NCBI GenBank assembly: GCA_946478765.1 | Contig: CAMLDH010000214.1 | Span: forward strand, 1 to 6,850 | Direction: 5' to 3' | DNA: 6,850 nucleotides | Origin: an uncultured Oxalobacteraceae bacterium | GTDB taxonomy: Bacteria; Pseudomonadota; Gammaproteobacteria; Burkholderiales; Burkholderiaceae | Shown: positions 1 to 6,850 of the stretch, in pieces | Layout of the letters: each line of letters opens with the position of its first letter | Position numbering within the stretch: position 1 is the first letter of the stretch | Program-made: the position numbers and the translations under genes | Notes under the pieces: generated by a model | What the model saw: only the letters and a program-made list of their open reading frames with translations | What the model was told of the DNA's origin: nothing | Databases searched by the model: none

Positions 1-90
1 TACTCCTTTCGCTTGAATTTCCAGTGCACCACAAAACCCCTGCTTCACCGCCTTGCATTGCATCCCGCTACGACCGCCAAATTACCTAAC

Positions 91-118
91 TTATTACTGC
101 GCGGTTATTACTGCGCGG
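91..118. repeat. 14-nt perfect tandem duplication
   Basis: The unit TTATTACTGCGCGG occurs twice head to tail (91-104 and 105-118) without mismatch. It lies in non-coding DNA. It is probably a replication-slippage product; no known binding site is recognised. Confidence 0.85.
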
Positions 119-190
119 GCTCTTACCTTTCCCATGACCTTGCTGGAATGACCAAAGTGGTCCGGATAGCGGCCAAAATCATGCGCATCC

Positions 191-233
191 ACTCTTCATC
201 ATTCCTCATCATTCCTCATCATTCCTCATCATT
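191..233. repeat. 10-nt tandem array in the leader
   Basis: Three perfect copies of ATTCCTCATC occupy 201-230. A degenerate copy (ACTCTTCATC, 8 of 10) precedes them at 191-200 and a partial unit (ATT) follows. The period is close to one helical turn, so all copies would face the same side of the DNA. That could suit a cooperative binding site, or it may simply be a slippage-prone simple repeat. Confidence 0.8.
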
Positions 234-414
234 AAACACAAAATTCACGTTCTTCCGCATTGCGTGATGCAAGGAAATAGCTGCGCGCAATCCTCGGAAA
301 CCCGCGCCAGCATTCGCTTTCCACTCTATTGATGCAGTAGTGAAGCCTTCCATTTTCGGCGATCGCCGGTTCTTCTCCCCTTGTGCAGGAGGGTTGTCGA
401 TGCTGGAACGAATA

Positions 415-444
415 TTGGCAGCATGACCACATAAGGACTATAAG
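415..444 (+). promoter_or_regulatory. Candidate sigma70 promoter for the exported-protein cluster
   Basis: A -35-like TTGGCA (415-420, 5 of 6 to consensus) and a -10-like TATAAG (439-444, 5 of 6) are separated by 18 nt. Transcription would start near 451, giving a leader of about 43 nt before the ATG at 494. It is the best promoter match seen upstream of the first gene. It was found by eye, so it remains a prediction. Confidence 0.5.
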
Positions 445-493
445 CGATCCGCGTTTATTGCCTTTTTCTTTTCTAATTACAGGAACAAACATC

Positions 494-1336
494 ATGACAA
501 CAAATAAGACGACTACTACAATTTCCATCGGCATTGCAACATTGCTGGTGCCATTGTCGGTATTCGCTACCCAACCCGGCGCAAGCGTACCCTGCGTCGT
601 ACCCGGCGTAAGCATTCCCGGCGCAAGCGGATACGGCGTAAGCATTCCCGGCGTAAGCATTCCCGGCGCAAGCATTCCCGGCGCAAGCGGATACGGCGCA
701 AGCGGATACGGCGGCATCAACATTCATAGCGGCGTGAACGGCAGTTTCTCCCTCGGCGCCAACGGAACGGCGACGTCGTATGCGCAGAACAGCGAAGCAG
801 CGACCGCAAAGATCGGTGCAACCACCAGCTTCACACCGAATTACAGCACGGTGGCAGCGGGCGTCTCCGGTGCAACGACGAGCGACAGCGCCGGTCAGGC
901 ATATAACATCAGCACCGGTTCCGGAATGGGCACGGCAGCATCGTTCGGCTCTTCCGCAACTCTGGTTGGTGGCACGACCTCTATTCAAGGCGTGACCGCG
1001 GGCTTTAACGGTGGCGGCTCGGGTACGCAGACAAGCAATGTCATTCAGGCGGGCACTAACCAAGGCAGCTATGTGACGGGGCAGACCTTGTCCGGTTTCG
1101 ACGCGGGAGTGAATTACGCTCGGACAGCCACAACCACTTTTCCTGTTGCCGGTGTTGGCGGCAGCCGGTCGTCAACGGTAAGCCTCTCGGCGTTCAACTC
1201 GGGATATGCAAGCGGTGCGAATTCCATGGGTGCCCTGACAGGCATGAATGCGGCAGGCATCGCCAATATTGGATCGTCCGGCCAATTCTTCGGCAATGGA
1301 AACATGTCCGCCACCATCAATACGGTCGCGCCATGA
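494..1336 (+). CDS. Secreted Gly/Ser/Thr-rich protein with pentapeptide-repeat block
   Basis: I do not recognise a named family. The 280-residue product starts with a Sec signal peptide: Thr/Lys-rich n-region, hydrophobic core ISIGIATLLVPLSV, likely cleavage after VFA at residue 25. Residues 28-73 form a block of five-residue units of two kinds, G[VA]SIP and GASGY. The remainder is low-complexity Gly/Ala/Ser/Thr with scattered Asn, Gln and aromatics, and only one Cys (residue 34). The start at 494 is chosen because AGGA (481-484) precedes it at normal spacing and it begins the signal peptide; an in-frame ATG at 383 would put 37 atypical residues before it. The composition suits an extracellular structural, matrix or adhesin-like polypeptide, possibly a functional amyloid, but no catalytic or named domain supports this. 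The next gene begins 31 nt downstream and probably shares its transcript. Confidence 0.8.
   Translation: MTTNKTTTTISIGIATLLVPLSVFATQPGASVPCVVPGVSIPGASGYGVSIPGVSIPGASIPGASGYGASGYGGINIHSGVNGSFSLGANGTATSYAQNSEAATAKIGATTSFTPNYSTVAAGVSGATTSDSAGQAYNISTGSGMGTAASFGSSATLVGGTTSIQGVTAGFNGGGSGTQTSNVIQAGTNQGSYVTGQTLSGFDAGVNYARTATTTFPVAGVGGSRSSTVSLSAFNSGYASGANSMGALTGMNAAGIANIGSSGQFFGNGNMSATINTVAP
605..709 (+). repeat. Seven 15-nt coding tandem repeats
   Basis: Seven 15-nt units begin with GGCGYAAGC and end with either ATTCCC (type A) or GGATAC (type B). The order is A-B-A-A-A-B-B. Each encodes one pentapeptide, G[VA]SIP or GASGY. A diverged unit lies just upstream at 578-592 and is followed by a 12-nt shortened unit. 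Because 15 is divisible by 3, gain or loss of a copy changes protein length without shifting the frame. The near-identity of copies at DNA level implies recent expansion or ongoing homogenisation. Confidence 0.9.
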
Positions 1337-1367
1337 TCGTCTCGTCTTCCATGAAACAGGAAAGATC

Positions 1368-1970
1368 ATGAAAATCAAAACACTCATTTTGCTGGTGGCT
1401 GCCTCTTGCACGGGGGCGGCCTTGGCCGATGATGGTCTTGCGCTTCGCCCTAGTTACGATTTGCAGCAAGCGTCAGCGGCGAAGTCCGCCCTCGAGCCCG
1501 CTGCAACGACGACCAATTCCAACTCGACTGCAACCGCAACGACGAGCAGCCAAGGCGGCGCTGCTCAAGGCGTTGGAAGTCAGGGGCAGTCGTTGTCGAT
1601 CGACAGCCATGCCGTCTACGAGGCCCCGCAGCGCAACCCGGTCGCGACAGCGATCGCTCCTGCTCTGACCAGCAGCAACGATACCTGTATGGGTTCCACA
1701 TCCGTGGGCGGCAGCGCGGTGTCGTTTGCGTTCAGCGTCGGAAGCTCCTGGACCGATGAGAACTGCGTGATGCTCAAGAATGCGCGCGAGATCTGGAACA
1801 TGGGCTTCAAGGGGGCTGCGCTGGCTCGCCTGTGCATGGATACGCTGAACAAGGAGGCGCTCGAAGCCACCGGCATTCAATGCCCGGTCCGGTCAACGGC
1901 AAAAGCGCAATCGTCGGAGACAAGCGCGGCGAATGACAACAGCGCCATGCAGGATATATATGCCCATTGA
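1368..1970 (+). CDS. Secreted protein with C-terminal four-cysteine module
   Basis: The 200-residue product has a clear Sec signal peptide (MKIK, then LILLVAASCTGAA, likely cleavage after ALA at residue 20). The Cys at residue 14 sits in a poor lipobox context, so I do not call it a lipoprotein. Residues 35-100 are a Ser/Thr/Ala/Gln-rich linker. Residues 105-173 are compact and ordered, with four Cys (107, 133, 156, 172), a Gly/Ser/Phe stretch, the motif SSWTDENC and an amphipathic helix around LKNAREIWNMGFKGAALARLC. Two disulphides in the periplasm or outside the cell are likely. I have the impression of similar CMGS...WTDENC modules in hypothetical proteins of Burkholderiales, but cannot name a function. 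AGGAAAG (1358-1364) precedes the ATG. The gene is 31 nt behind the repeat protein, which suggests joint expression. Confidence 0.8.
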   Translation: MKIKTLILLVAASCTGAALADDGLALRPSYDLQQASAAKSALEPAATTTNSNSTATATTSSQGGAAQGVGSQGQSLSIDSHAVYEAPQRNPVATAIAPALTSSNDTCMGSTSVGGSAVSFAFSVGSSWTDENCVMLKNAREIWNMGFKGAALARLCMDTLNKEALEATGIQCPVRSTAKAQSSETSAANDNSAMQDIYAH

Positions 1971-1986
1971 TAACGAGCCGCACAGG

Positions 1987-2050
1987 AACAAGTTGGCGAA
2001 CTTTGAGACCGGTTTCAGTCTTGATCACTTTAAAGATTCGCCAACTTGTT
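1987..2050. repeat. 14-bp perfect inverted repeat between genes
   Basis: AACAAGTTGGCGAA (1987-2000) is matched by its exact reverse complement at 2037-2050, with a 36-nt interior. Inside it, CTTT/AAAG and AGAC/GTCT allow partial further pairing. It lies 16 nt after the stop of the four-cysteine protein and 40 nt before the next ATG. No T-tract follows the right arm, so it is not a classical intrinsic terminator. It may be an mRNA-stabilising stem, a regulator-binding palindrome or a very small mobile-element relic. Confidence 0.8.
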
Positions 2051-2090
2051 TCGGCGTGACTCCTAAGCAATGAGCGCGCGAGGAGATACC

Positions 2091-2519
2091 ATGAAAATAT
2101 TCATTCCATTTGTATTGCTTGCTGCAACGTGCAGTATCGCCGCAGCGGCAAGCGGCAATTTTCAGATCGAGCGAATGGCGTCCGGCTCGGGAACGCCGGC
2201 AGTAGGGGAGACGAACGGAACAGAAACGGCGGAACACGTCGCCGATGGTTTGTATCATGTCTCGAACTTTTTGCCCGGCTTTCCCACCGCAGCGACTATC
2301 TGGCCCAGAGAGGTGCCGATTACATGCGGCCTGGACCACGCAACCCAGCGCAAGACATGCAGCGGCTACCGTGTGATTCCCGCGATAGGCCGCGGCGAGT
2401 ATATCTTCGTCCGGCCGATGGAGGTCCCGGCGCCGCCACCGGCGCCGATAACGGTGTCCGCGCCGCCTGAACCCAAGCCGGTGCCGGTGCCGGTCACGGT
2501 CAAAAAGCCGCTGGGTTGA
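2091..2519 (+). CDS. Exported protein with Pro-rich tail, apparently the N-terminal part of a split envelope enzyme
   Basis: The 142-residue product begins with a Sec signal peptide (MKIF, IPFVLLAATC, likely cut after AAA near residue 20). Residues 45-110 form a small folded region with two Cys (79 and 90), the segment LPGFPTAATIWPREVPITC and the segment GRGEYIFVRP. I do not recognise it as a named domain. Residues 111-140 are a Pro/Val/Lys linker (APPPAPITVSAPPEPKPVP), which normally joins domains rather than ending a protein. AGGAGA (2081-2086) is a strong ribosome-binding site for this ATG. The frame stops at TGA (2517-2519), and only two sense codons later the YkuD-like frame begins in the same phase. 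I infer that this and the next entry were one protein of about 260 residues; otherwise this is a free-standing secreted protein. Confidence 0.75.
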   Translation: MKIFIPFVLLAATCSIAAAASGNFQIERMASGSGTPAVGETNGTETAEHVADGLYHVSNFLPGFPTAATIWPREVPITCGLDHATQRKTCSGYRVIPAIGRGEYIFVRPMEVPAPPPAPITVSAPPEPKPVPVPVTVKKPLG

Positions 2520-2525
2520 CGCATC

Positions 2526-2876
2526 ATGATTGTCGTCAATCTGGCGCTGGCCTCGATCTGTTTTTCTGGGGCATGCCATCCGGCCCTGGTCGGAACCAAC
2601 ACGCCTGCCGGCACGTTTGCGTTATCGCAACAGCAAACCACGGAGCCGGGATACGGGGGAGATCTCCTGGTCTATCGGGAAGACGAAAAGAATCTGTGGG
2701 CAATTCACCGCGTCTACACCCTGAATCCCACAGAGCGCAGAGTAGAGCGGCTTGTTTCCGGCAGCGTTCACCAACGACGCGCCGTGACAAAAGGCTGTAT
2801 TAACATCATGCCGGACGTCTACCAGAAGCTGATGGACTGCTGCAGCAAGGACTTTCTCGTTATTAATCAAAATTAA
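2526..2876 (+). CDS. Compact YkuD-like L,D-transpeptidase domain, lacking its own signal peptide
   Basis: The 116-residue product reads as a small YkuD (L,D-transpeptidase) fold. IVVNLALASICF (residues 2-13) fits the opening beta strands, TPAGTF (26-31) the usual TPxGxF turn, IH (60-61) the histidine strand, and TKGCIN (88-93) the [ST]xGC[IV][NR] active-site loop, with Cys91 as predicted nucleophile and His61 as partner. The family makes 3-3 cross-links in peptidoglycan or anchors proteins to it, in the periplasm. Two more Cys (105, 106) lie near the end. The hydrophobic N-terminus has no basic residues and appears to belong to the domain, so this frame alone would be cytoplasmic. There is no clear ribosome-binding site before ATG 2526. 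Both points support expression as the C-terminal half of the preceding gene, through the TGA at 2517. The family call rests on motifs only. Confidence 0.65.
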   Translation: MIVVNLALASICFSGACHPALVGTNTPAGTFALSQQQTTEPGYGGDLLVYREDEKNLWAIHRVYTLNPTERRVERLVSGSVHQRRAVTKGCINIMPDVYQKLMDCCSKDFLVINQN

Positions 2877-3333
2877 CGCAAAAGTCGCATGGCGCGTTGG
2901 GCTAACGCTACCGCGCTCATGGCGACGCTGGCAAGATGCTTCGGCCATAATTCCAAATACGGACGAATCAACGACCATTCCTCTCTCGTGACAGAGACGT
3001 CCTGTCCCAATACGCATAACCGGGAACACGGTATGCAATTAGCCGCAGCCAAGTGTGTCCGGCGCTTCCGACGACGTTATAGCCCAAGCACCCCAGTTAA
3101 TTGCCCAAGCGGTGGCAGCATGGTCGGCATCGTTGCCAATATGCCGCTGATGGCATTGCCAGCCTGCCAGTATTAACAGTTATTTTGATTAAAAATATTT
3201 GTTACGCGCACATGCGTGCCATGCGGTTGTCTGATGTGCAATCCCATAAAAGCAGTATGGGCCAATGCTCGTACTTTAGATAAAATTCTTGCATGAAAGC
3301 AACGGCGAAATAATACGCAATTTTGTTAGCTAA
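2877..3333. other. Gene-free stretch, AT-rich towards the right
   Basis: No frame on either strand gives a credible protein. The 95-residue + frame at 2889-3176 is Arg/Cys-rich and has no ribosome-binding site. On the - strand, the frame at 2622-3038 is mainly the complement of the transpeptidase gene. From about 3175 the DNA turns AT-rich and could hold a promoter for the oxygenase operon. A -10-like TAAAAT occurs at 3281-3286, but I see no matching -35 box at 16-18 nt. No tRNA, rRNA or clear terminator was seen. Confidence 0.4.
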
Positions 3334-3440
3334 GGAACGTGTACGGAATAACTTCCCGATTTATCTCACGGCGGACTGGCGCCTTGCACTGCATTCTATT
3401 GAACGCATCCAAATCGGGAAGTTATTCCGTACACGTTTCC
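3334..3440. mobile_element. 107-bp MITE-like element with long terminal inverted repeats
   Basis: A 27-bp perfect inverted repeat (3336-3362 and 3411-3437) encloses 48 bp of unrelated sequence. The outer arm core reads GTGTACGGAATAACTTCCCG, and with a 1-nt indel the arms extend to GGAA...TTCC at 3334 and 3440. The element has no coding capacity. Size and architecture fit a miniature inverted-repeat transposable element or collapsed insertion-sequence ends. I could not assign it to an IS family and see no convincing target-site duplication. In RNA it would form a very stable hairpin about 70 nt before the oxygenase start, so it may also affect expression of that operon. Confidence 0.6.
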
Positions 3441-3509
3441 AATCAAAATTTTGGTATACGCATCCGATAGCCAAAATACATTTCCTCCACCCCACCAAAA
3501 AATGAGCCC

Positions 3510-4571
3510 ATGTCTTTGTCTGCCGTATTAAGTCACTCAATTCAATCCTCGCCTGATAGACGAATTTCGCAATTTGTGTCAAAAAGTAAAATTCCTGAAA
3601 TTCATTTCTCCTATCAGGAAAATCTGGCGTTGCGCCAACATTTCTCCGCATCAGCGGTTATCGATTGCGAAAGCGCAATCGCGGCCATGCCAACTCTGGG
3701 AAAAGTCTTGCGCGAAGTGATCGCCGACGAAAATATCCAGGTGCTTGATCGCTTTTCCAAAAGCGACGATTTTGCCTTGATCATCAGGAATATGCCGATC
3801 GATCATGATTTGCCACCCACCCCCTACACGTTGGATCCCAGCATGCAGCCCGTCACTATGGCAATCTTGTCAGTATTAAGTATTTTCGCCTCCATCGGCA
3901 TACACCCGCTCGCTTACCAAGGTGAAAATGACGAAAGCTTCATCCGTCATGTTGTTCCGAAAAGGCATGCGGAGACCACGATCAGTTCTTACGGGTCGAA
4001 GATGCACTTAGGCATGCATGCCGACAACCCTCACCTGCCATTGCAAACCGAAGCGGTGAGCGACATCTCCGCCTGTCCGGAGTATTTGTCGCTCACCGGG
4101 GTGCGTTGCGAGTTGGGTGTACCCACCCGTATCGTCGACATCCGCAGCGTGCTGAACGATCTGCCGGAGTTTGTGCTTGAGGAATTAATGAGAGCGCATT
4201 TTTCGATCAAGCGTCCCGAATCTTTTGCCGATCAAAGCCTGGTATTGACGGCACCTCTGGTTGTCAAGAATGAGCAAGGTCAACTGTTATGTCGCTATAA
4301 CAAGGCCAATGTCAGTGCCACTACGGCGGCGGCCGAGTTCGCCCTGAACGTGCTGGAAGCTAGCGCGCATTTTCCCCAACACGAGCATTGCATCCTGCTG
4401 CAGCAGGGCGATTCCTTGATTTTCAAGAATCAACGCACCCTGCATGCCCGCGACGGCTTTACGCCGCGCTTCGACGGCATGGACCGATGGCTCATACGCG
4501 TGTTTGGTATCGGTGAGATGGCGCGCACCCTGCCTGTATCCGCCGATAAACCGTATATTGTCAAAGCCTGA
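3510..4571 (+). CDS. TauD/clavaminate-synthase-like Fe(II)/2-oxoglutarate oxygenase
   Basis: The 353-residue product has the marks of the clavaminate-synthase/asparagine-oxygenase branch of the TauD family, cytosolic enzymes that couple 2-oxoglutarate decarboxylation to hydroxylation, often of free or carrier-bound amino acids. The iron ligands are HAD (His170, Asp172) and a distal His312 in NQRTLHARDGFTPRFDG. Arg326 in DRWLIR, 14 residues after the distal His, is placed to bind 2-oxoglutarate. CPEYLSLTGVR (189-199) matches the strand after the first ligands. Length is usual for the family. The substrate cannot be read from the sequence. The ATG at 3510 has no good Shine-Dalgarno, but the next in-frame Met is at residue 60, inside the domain, so I keep it. 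The permease starts 3 nt after the stop, so the two are surely co-transcribed, and a trans-editing deacylase follows. An amino-acid hydroxylase role is the best inference. Confidence 0.85.
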   Translation: MSLSAVLSHSIQSSPDRRISQFVSKSKIPEIHFSYQENLALRQHFSASAVIDCESAIAAMPTLGKVLREVIADENIQVLDRFSKSDDFALIIRNMPIDHDLPPTPYTLDPSMQPVTMAILSVLSIFASIGIHPLAYQGENDESFIRHVVPKRHAETTISSYGSKMHLGMHADNPHLPLQTEAVSDISACPEYLSLTGVRCELGVPTRIVDIRSVLNDLPEFVLEELMRAHFSIKRPESFADQSLVLTAPLVVKNEQGQLLCRYNKANVSATTAAAEFALNVLEASAHFPQHEHCILLQQGDSLIFKNQRTLHARDGFTPRFDGMDRWLIRVFGIGEMARTLPVSADKPYIVKA

Positions 4572-4574
4572 TCG

Positions 4575-5339
4575 ATGCTAACTATTTCACTTTTATGCAT
4601 GTTTGCCTTCGCCGCCGGCTTAATTGACGCGGCAGTCGGGGGCGGCGGACTGATACAGATTCCCGCACTGTTTAACCTATTGCCAAACACGTCGTCGGCA
4701 GCGCTACTCGGTACCAACAAGGTCGCGGCCGCATGCGGCACCGCGTTCGCGGCCAAATCGTTCATCGGCAAAATACACATTCCATGGCGTCTGGTGTTGC
4801 CGGCCGCAATCAGTGCGTTCGGCATGTCTTTCCTCGGTGCGGCAGCAGTGTCGACAGTGCCCCAGAGTCTCATCCGCCCGGTGGTACTTGTGCTGCTGGT
4901 GCTCATGGCCATCTATACATTTTTCAAAAAGGATTTCGGGGCCGTTCAAAGACCCCGGAAAATCACTTCGCGTGAACACATCCTGGCGGTCGTGATCGGA
5001 GGCAGCATCGGTTTCTACGACGGCCTGTTCGGCCCCGGAACCGGCAGCTTCCTGATATTTTTGTTTATCCGCTTCTTTGCCTTCGATTTTGTACAGGCAT
5101 CGGCTTGTGCGAAGATCGTCAACTTAGCGACCAATGTCGCGGCGCTACTGTTTTTCATTCCTGCAGGAAAAGTGCTGTATGCATTCGCAGCGCCCATGGC
5201 AGTGTGCAATATCTTGGGTGCACTTACCGGCAGTTGGATAGCCATGCACAAGGGGGCCGCATTCGTGCGTATCTTGTTCCTCGTTTTACTTGTTATCCTG
5301 ATCTCAAAACTGGCCTATGACCTCATTCCCCATGGATAA
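4575..5339 (+). CDS. TSUP-family (TauE/SafE, YfcA-like) membrane permease
   Basis: The 254-residue product is an inner-membrane protein with about eight hydrophobic segments. It carries the two hallmark loops of the TSUP family: AGLIDAAVGGGGLIQIPAL (residues 14-32) and its internal repeat GFYDGLFGPGTGSF (146-159), with GTNK at 46-49. Family members move small anions such as sulfite, sulfoacetate, sulfolactate or other organic acids, frequently outward. The substrate here cannot be inferred from motifs. The ATG lies 3 nt after the oxygenase stop without a clear ribosome-binding site, which suggests translational coupling. The 3' end overlaps the next gene by 8 or 23 nt. Placed between an oxygenase and a tRNA-editing enzyme, it is a candidate exporter of the oxygenase product. 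Confidence 0.9.
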   Translation: MLTISLLCMFAFAAGLIDAAVGGGGLIQIPALFNLLPNTSSAALLGTNKVAAACGTAFAAKSFIGKIHIPWRLVLPAAISAFGMSFLGAAAVSTVPQSLIRPVVLVLLVLMAIYTFFKKDFGAVQRPRKITSREHILAVVIGGSIGFYDGLFGPGTGSFLIFLFIRFFAFDFVQASACAKIVNLATNVAALLFFIPAGKVLYAFAAPMAVCNILGALTGSWIAMHKGAAFVRILFLVLLVILISKLAYDLIPHG

Positions 5340-5877
5340 TTCCGACATCTCCGTACACGACAAGCTTAAGTCCCTCCTTGACAACGGCAAGGCCCGCTAT
5401 CGGCTTGTGCAACACACGGCGGCAGGAAAATCCGAAGAGGTTGCGCTGGCCCGTGGCACAGAGATCGGCCAAGGCGCCAAGGCGCTGGTCTGCGAGCTGC
5501 TGTTCGACAATGCCGTCAAGGCCAATGTGCTGGCGGTGATGCCGGCGGACAGGCAGCTGGACAAGACGGAACTGGCGCGCTCCTTTGGCGCCAAGAAAGC
5601 GAAGCTGCTGGGGATAGACGCGACGCGTGCGCTCACCAAATGCGAAATCGGCGCGATTCCGCCATTTACCTTTAGCCCAGATATTATTTTGGTGTGCGAT
5701 CCGCAATTGATCGAACGTTATTCGACTATTGCATTCAATGCGGGCAAGCTCGATATCTCGATGCTGCTCAATACCGAGGATTATCTGGCGCTGGCGAAAC
5801 CGCAACTAATGCGGATTACCGCCTCGCCCATTACGAACAAATCCCTCATGGAGGCGGTCGCAGTAGAAAGACTCTAG
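5317..5877 (+). CDS. yeaK: YeaK/ProXp-ST1-type trans-editing aminoacyl-tRNA deacylase
   Basis: The 186-residue product is a free-standing YbaK/EbsC-fold (INS-superfamily) editing protein. It resembles, as I recall that sequence, E. coli YeaK in several blocks: RGTEIGQGAKALVCE (46-60), CEIGAIPPFTF (109-119), IERYSTIAFNAGKLD (132-146) and a final LAKPQL. Lys55 in GAKAL is the expected catalytic lysine and GAIPPF the substrate-pocket loop. YeaK-class proteins hydrolyse Ser or Thr wrongly attached to various tRNAs in the cytosol. An ATG at 5332 (15 nt in) is an equally good start and would shorten the overlap with the permease gene from 23 to 8 nt; neither has a ribosome-binding site. In an operon with an amino-acid-type oxygenase and a permease, it may guard against mischarging of the pathway product. 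The C-terminus runs about 15-20 residues beyond the remembered family end. Confidence 0.88.
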   Translation: MTSFPMDNSDISVHDKLKSLLDNGKARYRLVQHTAAGKSEEVALARGTEIGQGAKALVCELLFDNAVKANVLAVMPADRQLDKTELARSFGAKKAKLLGIDATRALTKCEIGAIPPFTFSPDIILVCDPQLIERYSTIAFNAGKLDISMLLNTEDYLALAKPQLMRITASPITNKSLMEAVAVERL

Positions 5878-5899
5878 TACCTACGTGCTGGAGAGCGGG

Positions 5900-6100
5900 C
5901 TATGCAGGATGCTGCTTGCTTGCACGAAGAAAAAACCAGCCTGCTGCCAGCATCGCCACTCCCCACACCAGAAATCCAATGTCCCAATATATCCATTGGT
6001 CTGCCGGCGCTGTTTCGTTGACGTGATGGATTTGAAGAATATGGTGGTTGATAGTTTCTTCCACCACATCTATGACATCCTCACGGAACATCGCCCGCAC
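5900..6100 (-). pseudogene. C-terminal remnant of a DUF2243 membrane protein
   Basis: Read on the - strand, 66 codons match the end of DUF2243 inner-membrane proteins as I remember them: NHHILQIHHVNETAP, then QWIYWDIGFLVWG and a final hydrophobic helix VAMLAAGWFFLRAS. Intact members have about four membrane segments and roughly 150 residues or more; only the last His-rich loop and helix remain. An in-frame TGA lies at 6104-6106 (- strand), the first residues (MRAMFRED) do not fit the family, and the only start near the edge is GTG 6100. The upstream DNA is occupied by the ribosome-binding site of the small gene at 6131. I therefore call it a decayed gene. It converges on the yeaK-type gene, with 22 nt between the stops. 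Function of the family is unknown. Confidence 0.65.
6048..6076 (+). promoter_or_regulatory. Candidate promoter for the small gene at 6131
   Basis: TTGATA (6048-6053, 5 of 6) and TATGAC (6071-6076, 4 of 6) are 17 nt apart, predicting a start near 6083 and a leader of about 48 nt. It lies inside the DUF2243 remnant, which would therefore now act as promoter DNA. A second weaker pair (TTGACG 6018-6023, TATGGT 6040-6045) overlaps the region. Confidence 0.35.
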
Positions 6101-6130
6101 CAGTCAGTCGAATTATTTTTGGAGGTGCAT

Positions 6131-6319
6131 ATGAATGCGCAAAGAAATGACGCCGAGAAATCGACGCAATCCGCTGATGATGGCATCCTGGAAAAAATTG
6201 CAAGAGCAATAGATCCGCCGAGCCGGGAGGTCAGCGATGAGGAACTGATCGATCCAGGTGCAAACACGCCCGATTCGAATCCCAAAGGTAACAAACCTAA
6301 ACCTGCGGACGCCAAATAG
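6131..6319 (+). CDS. Small acidic hydrophilic protein of unknown function
   Basis: The 62-residue product is supported by a strong GGAGGT ribosome-binding site (6121-6126) four nt before the ATG. It has no signal peptide and no membrane segment. Residues 18-40 (DDGILEKIARAIDPPSREVSDEE) are predicted to form a short amphipathic helix followed by an acidic turn. The tail is rich in Pro, Asn, Lys and Gly (NPKGNKPKPADAK) and probably disordered. I do not recognise a family. The frame remains open upstream to 5885, but that part is Cys/His-rich, has no ribosome-binding site and is antisense to the DUF2243 remnant, so I reject the longer start. It stands alone, with 168 nt to the next gene. Confidence 0.75.
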   Translation: MNAQRNDAEKSTQSADDGILEKIARAIDPPSREVSDEELIDPGANTPDSNPKGNKPKPADAK

Positions 6320-6393
6320 GGCGACGGAAGCCGGTCATGGCGACGATGGCGCTTGCCCTTGTTGACCATGTCTGCATCGAACGACCTTGCCAA

Positions 6394-6417
6394 AATCAAG
6401 ACGGGCAGGCCTTGATT
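6394..6417. repeat. Short inverted repeat between genes
   Basis: AATCAAG (6394-6400) and CTTGATT (6411-6417) form a 7-bp perfect stem with a 10-nt loop, about 75 nt after the small gene's stop. There is no T-tract behind it and the stem is AT-rich. It could be a weak terminator or an operator for the efflux gene; it may also be chance. Confidence 0.35.
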
Positions 6418-6487
6418 CTTCTCACCACCAAGCAGGAAAAAATTGGTTTAAATAGCAAGACAGACACCATCAGAAGCCGCTGCGCAC

Positions 6488-6850
6488 ATGCAGCTGCCAC
6501 GGCAAGGGGGCACGGTGAGTTGTATCGGAAGTCGCGCCATCACAAGCAGTGCGGTCAGGCGACGCATATTGCTATTGCCGATGGTATTGGGTATCTCGGC
6601 CTGTACGCCAAAAAATGCCCCGCCGCCGCAGTTGCCGCCTCCTGAAGTGTCCGCCATCAAGGTAAGCGCCACACCGGTGACCGTGTACCAGGAATATGCC
6701 GCGCAGGCAGAATCGGTTGATACGGTCGAGATTCGGTCCCGGGTCGGCGGCATTATGGAACGCCAGGCGTTCCGGGACGGCGCCAAGGTCCAGCCCGGCG
6801 ACTTGCTCTTTGTTATCGACCAGCAGCCGTATATCGCTGCCCTGACGCAG
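6488..6850 (+). CDS. RND efflux periplasmic adaptor (membrane fusion) lipoprotein, 5' part only
   Basis: The frame is open to the window edge, giving 121 codons of a protein expected to have about 380-400. It begins with a basic n-region (RRR at 24-26), a hydrophobic core ILLLPMVLG and a lipobox ISAC (Cys39), followed by Thr-Pro and a Pro-rich stretch (APPPQLPPPE), typical of adaptors anchored in the inner membrane by lipid. Next come the first beta-barrel strand (VSAIKVSATPVTV) and the biotinyl-lipoyl-like half motif EIRSRVGGIMERQAFRDG, with KVQPGDLLFVIDQQPY, as in AcrA/MexA proteins. Such adaptors link an RND pump to an outer-membrane channel for drug or solvent efflux; pump genes are expected to the right. 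The start is uncertain: ATG 6488 has no ribosome-binding site, while GTG 6515, with AAGGGGG at 6504-6510, leaves a neat signal peptide (Cys at residue 30). Confidence 0.88.
   Translation, partial: MQLPRQGGTVSCIGSRAITSSAVRRRILLLPMVLGISACTPKNAPPPQLPPPEVSAIKVSATPVTVYQEYAAQAESVDTVEIRSRVGGIMERQAFRDGAKVQPGDLLFVIDQQPYIAALTQ

Follow-up and report, generated by a model that had tools for sequence, protein, structure and literature searches.

The closest described parallels to the system reported here are loci in which a tRNA-editing deacylase stands beside the genes for a particular amino acid. ProXp-ST1 proteins hydrolyze Ser- and Thr-tRNAs of broad identity, and the related deacylase FthB hydrolyzes fluorothreonyl-tRNA (PMC11295145). 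In the 4-fluorothreonine locus of Streptomyces cattleya and Streptomyces sp. MA37, fthB and fthC are both conserved, FthC is an exporter, and FthB blocks the entry of fluorothreonine into protein (PMC11295145, PMC7162832, PMC7408626). CtdA, a stand-alone canavanyl-tRNA deacylase, is encoded beside canavanine-degradation genes (PMC10018355). A comparable arrangement is found in contig CAMLDH010000214.1 of an uncultured Oxalobacteraceae bacterium (assembly GCA_946478765.1). Positions 1 to 6,850 of this contig (6,850 nucleotides (nt), forward strand; in the following termed the window) harbor three adjoining genes for an Fe(II)/2-oxoglutarate oxygenase (OX), a permease of the TSUP family and an aminoacyl-tRNA deacylase of the YeaK/ProXp-ST1 type (EDIT).

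All three genes are located on the + strand and form a tight operon. OX (3510..4571, 353 amino acids) is separated by a gap of 3 nt from TSUP (4575..5339, 254 amino acids), which in turn overlaps EDIT (5317..5877, 186 amino acids) by 23 nt, or by 8 nt should the in-frame ATG at 5332 be the true start. The coordinates of the open reading frames agree with the layout described in an earlier reading of the DNA letters (the sequence-only reading), and its three family calls hold up in Pfam, where matches to TauD (1.4e-9), TauE (PF01925; 8.7e-44, 150.4 bits versus a cut-off of 32.6) and tRNA_edit (PF04073; 1.9e-17) all exceed the gathering score. The best reading of this trio, to which we give an even chance, is a make-export-protect operon. 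OX would be a beta-hydroxylase of a free L-amino acid, L-aspartate being the likeliest choice, and yield L-threo-3-hydroxyaspartate or a similar small polar product. TSUP would export the anionic product, and EDIT would hydrolyze tRNAs that carry it by mistake, much as ProXp-ST1 proteins clear Ser- and Thr-tRNA, with the result that the producer keeps its own product out of protein. If this is true, tRNA proofreading would act as self-protection from a cell's own hydroxylated amino acids beyond the fluorothreonine case, ProXp-ST1 proteins would have a natural role, one pocket residue would be predicted to set the substrate class of OX, and the small cassette would provide a simple, testable route to unknown antimetabolite amino acids.

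The sequence-only reading had held that self-resistance by an editing domain in a minimal make-export-protect cassette would be a distinctive system. The principle is already known from FthB and FthC of fluorothreonine producers; the new elements in the present case are the use of oxygenase chemistry, the operon itself and a third gene that varies among relatives. Both systems place a ProXp-ST1-related deacylase and an exporter (a presumed one in the case of TSUP) beside an enzyme that makes, or in the case of OX is predicted to make, a beta-hydroxy amino acid, and EDIT is linked to OX in 30 loci in addition to the window. However, the product of the fth locus is made by a pyridoxal-phosphate-type transaldolase of the serine hydroxymethyltransferase (SHMT)-aldolase type, whereas the window encodes an Fe(II)/2-oxoglutarate oxygenase and no such transaldolase accompanies EDIT. 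On an S. cattleya plasmid, a PF04073 protein with 37% identity to EDIT, which is probably FthB, adjoins a gene whose SHMT and Aldolase_II domains match what the transaldolase should look like; these two genes lie on opposite strands, in contrast to the single tight operon of the window. CtdA resembles EDIT as a stand-alone editing protein adjoining genes for a toxic amino acid, but is a B3/B4-type protein whose neighbors degrade the compound (PMC10018355).

The sequence-only reading had proposed a search for co-occurrence of the three families across genomes. An alignment-based profile scan with one genome per species yielded 51 OX loci, 33 from Pseudomonas and 18 from elsewhere; a scan of the same contigs with a single sequence gave none. 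OX, TSUP and EDIT are neighbors in this order in 30 of the 51 loci, all of them from Pseudomonas, and since the same three genes recur in the same order across these loci, the arrangement is more than chance. The Pseudomonas copies are 73–76% (TSUP) and 42–51% (EDIT) identical to the window proteins. The gap between OX and TSUP amounts to 3–5 nt in 29 of the 30 trio loci, while in the thirtieth (L017) TSUP and EDIT were matched in broken pieces. A divergently oriented LysR gene, with a product at least 77% identical to that of locus L007, is situated 5' of OX in 29 of the 30; it is absent from L016 and from the window. The remaining three Pseudomonas OX loci (L046, L049 and L051) are decayed. 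Full-text word searches of the open-licence literature, a scope outside which most subscription papers fall, yielded no paper recognized as describing the trio.

EDIT co-occurs with OX also in a set of 298 Pseudomonas species genomes, which was searched with each protein (close OX, more than 340 bits; EDIT, more than 130 bits). Close OX is present in 12 genomes and weaker OX matches in 55 more. EDIT was found in 12 of 12 genomes with close OX versus 5 of 286 without (Fisher's exact p 7.6e-18), a p-value that overstates independence because the 298 genomes represent one genus and kinship is ignored. In each of the 12 genomes there is a single EDIT match at E 1e-10, always beside the place of OX. 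The five further genomes are G090, in which a decayed OX lies beside intact TSUP and EDIT, and G081, G255, G290 and G311; G275, with a 44.5-bit fragment containing two stops, was left out of the count.

Joint decay of OX and EDIT is seen in part of the degenerate loci. In L046, an intact TSUP is flanked by what is left of OX and EDIT, their final 140 and 83 bp, respectively, and in L051 all three genes persist as remnants. L097 and L098 carry clear OX scars before TSUP, and EDIT was not detected there. OX remnants are thus clear in five loci; in four of them EDIT is a remnant or undetected, in L049 it is intact, and TSUP is intact in four of the five. OX scars in L096, L099 and L100 are short and ambiguous (40–50 nt next to the TSUP start), and none was found by blastn in L101–L105. 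EDIT had no blastn match in L096–L105, and tblastn gave only a weak one (E 0.046) in L101, away from TSUP. As a separate observation, a fragment of an AMP-binding enzyme gene is located 5' of the OX remnant in L049 (6782-7687) and L046 (1-909), in L049 between LysR and OX.

By profile and fold, the closest solved proteins to OX are AsnO, the L-asparagine 3-hydroxylase of Streptomyces coelicolor, and the lysine hydroxylase KDO1. AsnO, which works for a lipopeptide cluster, is both the best profile match in the PDB and the best fold match (2og7, E 1.3e-20). The AlphaFold2 model of OX has a mean pLDDT (predicted local distance difference test) of 83.7, with low values at residues 1–24 and 158–164. 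OX contains the iron triad His-x-Asp/Glu...His and the 2-oxoglutarate-binding Arg of clavaminate-synthase-like (CSL) oxygenases, namely H170-A-D172 as the first two iron ligands (4017..4025, + strand), H312 and R326, and the motif is therefore intact as the sequence-only reading had stated; R330 is present as well. All five residues are invariant in an alignment of 24 rows (the window and 23 relatives with 34–59% identity), and H and D occupy positions 170 and 172 in every covering row of a second alignment.

In the pocket scheme for CSL amino-acid oxygenases, a Glu or Gln at P2 binds the alpha-amino group and an Arg at P19 the carboxylate, P6 is a further amino-acid binder, and the sub-pocket P12–P15, PPSD in AsnO, picks the side chain (PMC6224419). 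By alignment, P2 and P19 correspond to E139 and R330 of OX. E139, S160 and N264 align opposite E125, N146 and D241 of AsnO in the profile alignment, where AsnO numbering was anchored on Asn146, named P6 in the scheme. At the positions aligned to P12–P15 the window protein reads P-E-S-N, and the P-x-S lid motif is shared with AsnO, as are the equivalent amino-acid-binding residues. Differences comprise HxD in OX where AsnO has HxE, a longer loop after HxD, and Asn at the position of Asp241 (P15; codon of N264 at 4299..4301, + strand). The amino-acid-type oxygenase proposed from the letters is hence backed by retained binding residues of the AsnO/KDO1 type, and its substrate is a prediction. These residues, along with the sequence and fold matches to free amino-acid hydroxylases of the AsnO/KDO1/VioC branch, speak against a scheme suggested by the family names TauD and TauE/SafE, in which the OX substrate is no amino acid but, for instance, a sulfonate, with sulfite as the cargo exported by TSUP and EDIT riding along as a passenger. 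Given that EDIT is present in the trio 30 times, we regard this scheme as highly improbable.

Position 264 is Asn in all 30 Pseudomonas trio loci and in the window, while the other 36 rows have Asp in 33 cases and Ser in two, with one uncovered; the 67 rows derive from 65 loci and the window, and some repeat a gene that was retrieved two times or as two fragments. The 78 protein hits divide into 31 with N at this position, 45 with D and two with G. In the OX tree, which has several long branches, 26 D264 rows cluster together (94/99), separate from the N rows. The AsnO variant D241N is listed as converting L-Asp to L-threo-hydroxyaspartic acid (table in PMC9968057), and N264 of OX therefore leads to the prediction of an aspartate-type beta-hydroxylase. 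On the other hand, Asn at P15, in the motif NPIN, is tied to hydrophobic substrates in one group (PMC6224419), for which reason 3-hydroxyaspartate itself is a possible product of OX with the balance tilted against it; 3-hydroxyaspartate or a similar beta-hydroxy amino acid is our guess.

EDIT shares motifs and 49% identity with E. coli YeaK, scoring 138 bits against YeaK and 20 against YbaK; as a PF04073 protein nearer to YeaK than to YbaK it belongs to the ProXp-ST1 type. In contrast to the trio, yeaK lies beside neither an oxygenase gene nor a TSUP gene, as judged from 6.5 kb of the E. coli K-12 genome. K55 in the motif GQGAK (5479..5481, + strand), which we take to be the catalytic lysine, is invariant in the EDIT alignment without YbaK and L112_x. 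A column scan found no position that separates 36 OX-linked EDIT proteins from 117 other YeaK-type proteins, the former comprising 30 from Pseudomonas and six of the window type, four of which are linked only by same-sized contigs. Since no distinguishing column was found, the sequence of EDIT gives no sign of a new specificity. In the EDIT tree, the window protein groups apart from the proteins of the Pseudomonas operons; with weak deep forks and a very long branch to the outgroup, the tree is not taken to show either one recruitment or several.

The lack of a distinguishing column and the identity to YeaK would suit a different role, namely that EDIT is an ordinary ProXp-ST1, which clears Ser/Thr-mischarged tRNAs, is co-transcribed because OX disturbs amino-acid pools, and does not act on the OX product. 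Relatives without OX are indeed common. The 399 genomes searched from the order of Deefgea yielded three OX matches, none of the window type, and 13 EDIT matches (12 above 120 bits and one of 71), and because the latter all fall in other genomes than the OX matches, ProXp-ST1 proteins do not generally need OX. However, EDIT in Pseudomonas seldom occurs outside OX-positive genomes and is mostly lost when OX decays, an association that a general proofreader would not need, and we consider this role of EDIT unlikely.

In loci with related OX genes the exporter is mostly kept, and the remaining neighbors vary. All ten Pseudomonas clade-2 loci consist of a regulator gene, OX, TSUP and a short-chain dehydrogenase/reductase (SDR) by gene clusters; in L058, the sole clade-2 locus scanned, the regulator is of the MocR type and the SDR belongs to the YdfG group. 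In Vibrio, Photobacterium, Marinomonas, Parendozoicomonas and others, OX is accompanied by a hydroxyisobutyrate-dehydrogenase-type enzyme and TSUP, in some cases also by TrpB and TrpA. YdfG- and hydroxyisobutyrate-type dehydrogenases are beta-hydroxy-acid enzymes by family name and are also active on amino acids; such neighbors fit a beta-hydroxylated OX product. Two alphaproteobacterial metagenome-assembled genomes (MAGs; L032:6362-12320 and L034:2-4318) carry a histidyl-tRNA synthetase gene directly before OX, followed by a LysE-type exporter and parts of a TrpX-like ABC system. This synthetase is a second copy with its motifs kept (346.4 and 316.8 bits versus 473.6 and 475.5). TSUP is absent from the Burkholderiaceae MAG L035 and from clade-3 Pseudomonas loci.

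OX relatives are also found on plasmids, with 96 matching records, 40 from Klebsiella and one from Serratia. OX, TSUP and a GNAT acetyltransferase gene stand in a row on one Klebsiella plasmid (L120:5791-8109), typed conjugative, and one Serratia symbiotica plasmid (L121:5800-8104), typed non-mobilizable with tra genes alongside. On two Pantoea plasmids (L117:7047-9035 and L118:7047-12178), a class II (D, K, N) synthetase-like protein is encoded before an OX relative (29% identity), followed downstream in L118 by ATP-grasp, MFS and Asp/Glu racemase genes. A DNA search of plasmids with the whole operon gave a single match, 213 bases inside TSUP in a Streptomyces record.

The third-slot genes of these relatives could likewise handle a toxic or reactive amino acid. 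A tentative extension of this idea is that the loci represent widespread minimal cassettes for amino-acid warfare or signaling, some of them on conjugative plasmids. A CSL oxygenase and an exporter would form the core, and a tRNA-editing deacylase, a second aminoacyl-tRNA synthetase, an N-acetyltransferase or a beta-hydroxy-acid dehydrogenase would serve as swappable protection modules; the exchange Asp264Asn would accompany the tRNA-editing version and turn an asparagine-type into an aspartate-type oxygenase. Tryptophan, prompted as a substrate by trpBA beside some relatives, is a weak candidate: the trpB beside OX relatives is the sole full copy in Haemophilus and Actinobacillus. In Deefgea, Parendozoicomonas and Endobugula (L028, L030 and L037), OX and TSUP are followed by a trpB that is an additional full copy, and trpA is present in the locus.

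TSUP also occurs apart from close OX. Proteins 69–76% identical to the window TSUP occur in 53 of the 298 Pseudomonas genomes, in 41 of them without close OX, and among the 41 only G090 has EDIT. In all ten loci fetched from the 41 genomes (L096–L105), TSUP is adjoined by LysR (58–89% identical to that of L007). TSUP was therefore rejected as an exclusive partner of OX, and since 41 genomes carry it without close OX, it has another use and is not exclusive to the OX product. Retention of TSUP together with its LysR would also be compatible with the reverse direction of transport, in which TSUP imports an environmental amino acid or analogue, OX begins its breakdown and EDIT guards translation, like CtdA, which as a stand-alone editing protein adjoins a catabolic operon (PMC10018355). 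The beta-hydroxy-acid-type dehydrogenases beside sibling OX–TSUP pairs point the same way, as do two further pairs (L108 and L109, OX 28–29% identical to the window OX), near genes that in L109 encode an amino-acid carrier and a type I asparaginase. Set against this, no family besides LysR recurs beside the trio in most loci as judged by gene clusters, in which downstream neighbors in Pseudomonas are unannotated, and the TSUP slot of the two alphaproteobacterial relatives is taken by LysE, an amino-acid exporter family. Uptake and use of the substrate is thus an improbable function of the trio.

The make-export-protect operon put forward in the sequence-only reading consequently stands in part. 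It is favored by the conserved neighborhood, by the tracking of OX by EDIT in the 298 genomes, by the kept amino-acid-binding residues, by the alternative third-slot genes of relatives and by the FthB precedent. OX catalysis, export by TSUP and deacylation of product-charged tRNA by EDIT are what we infer from these features. Several observations weigh against it, among them the non-exclusive TSUP and the missing EDIT signature described above. At 1e-4, EDIT is matched in none of the 18 OX loci from outside Pseudomonas; 13 contain a TSUP match within the locus. A faint hint of linkage outside this genus comes from same-sized contigs that pair OX and EDIT hits, read by eye against the best 120 EDIT hits: four among P0001–P0032 (sizes 5190, 9418, 3856 and 4166), plus one size coincidence (1399) among P0033–P0078, where both genes cannot fit without overlap. 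One of the four (P0031, 4166) has D264 despite its possible EDIT linkage and falls outside the D264 group of the tree. Moreover, EDIT occurs without close OX in G081, G255, G290 and G311, and in L049 (P. gingeri G9001) EDIT is kept at 95% DNA identity beside a decayed OX and is identical to the EDIT of L115 from G090.

In the surroundings of the operon, an Rfam scan of the window gave no match at the gathering score, and promoter-like and terminator-like sites numbered one and five, versus 3.9 and 4.3 in shuffles. An inverted repeat with perfect 27 bp arms around a 48 bp spacer (3336-3437) lies just 5' of OX and possibly represents a small mobile element or a terminator. Further upstream, positions 494-2876 contain four small + strand genes without known function, one with 15 nt tandem repeats (602-713); one of the four matches phrog_20531 (3.2e-24) and another phrog_38499 (3.9e-45). 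Downstream of EDIT, the start of an RND efflux adaptor gene with MexE as best match (6488-6850) is truncated by the end of the window.

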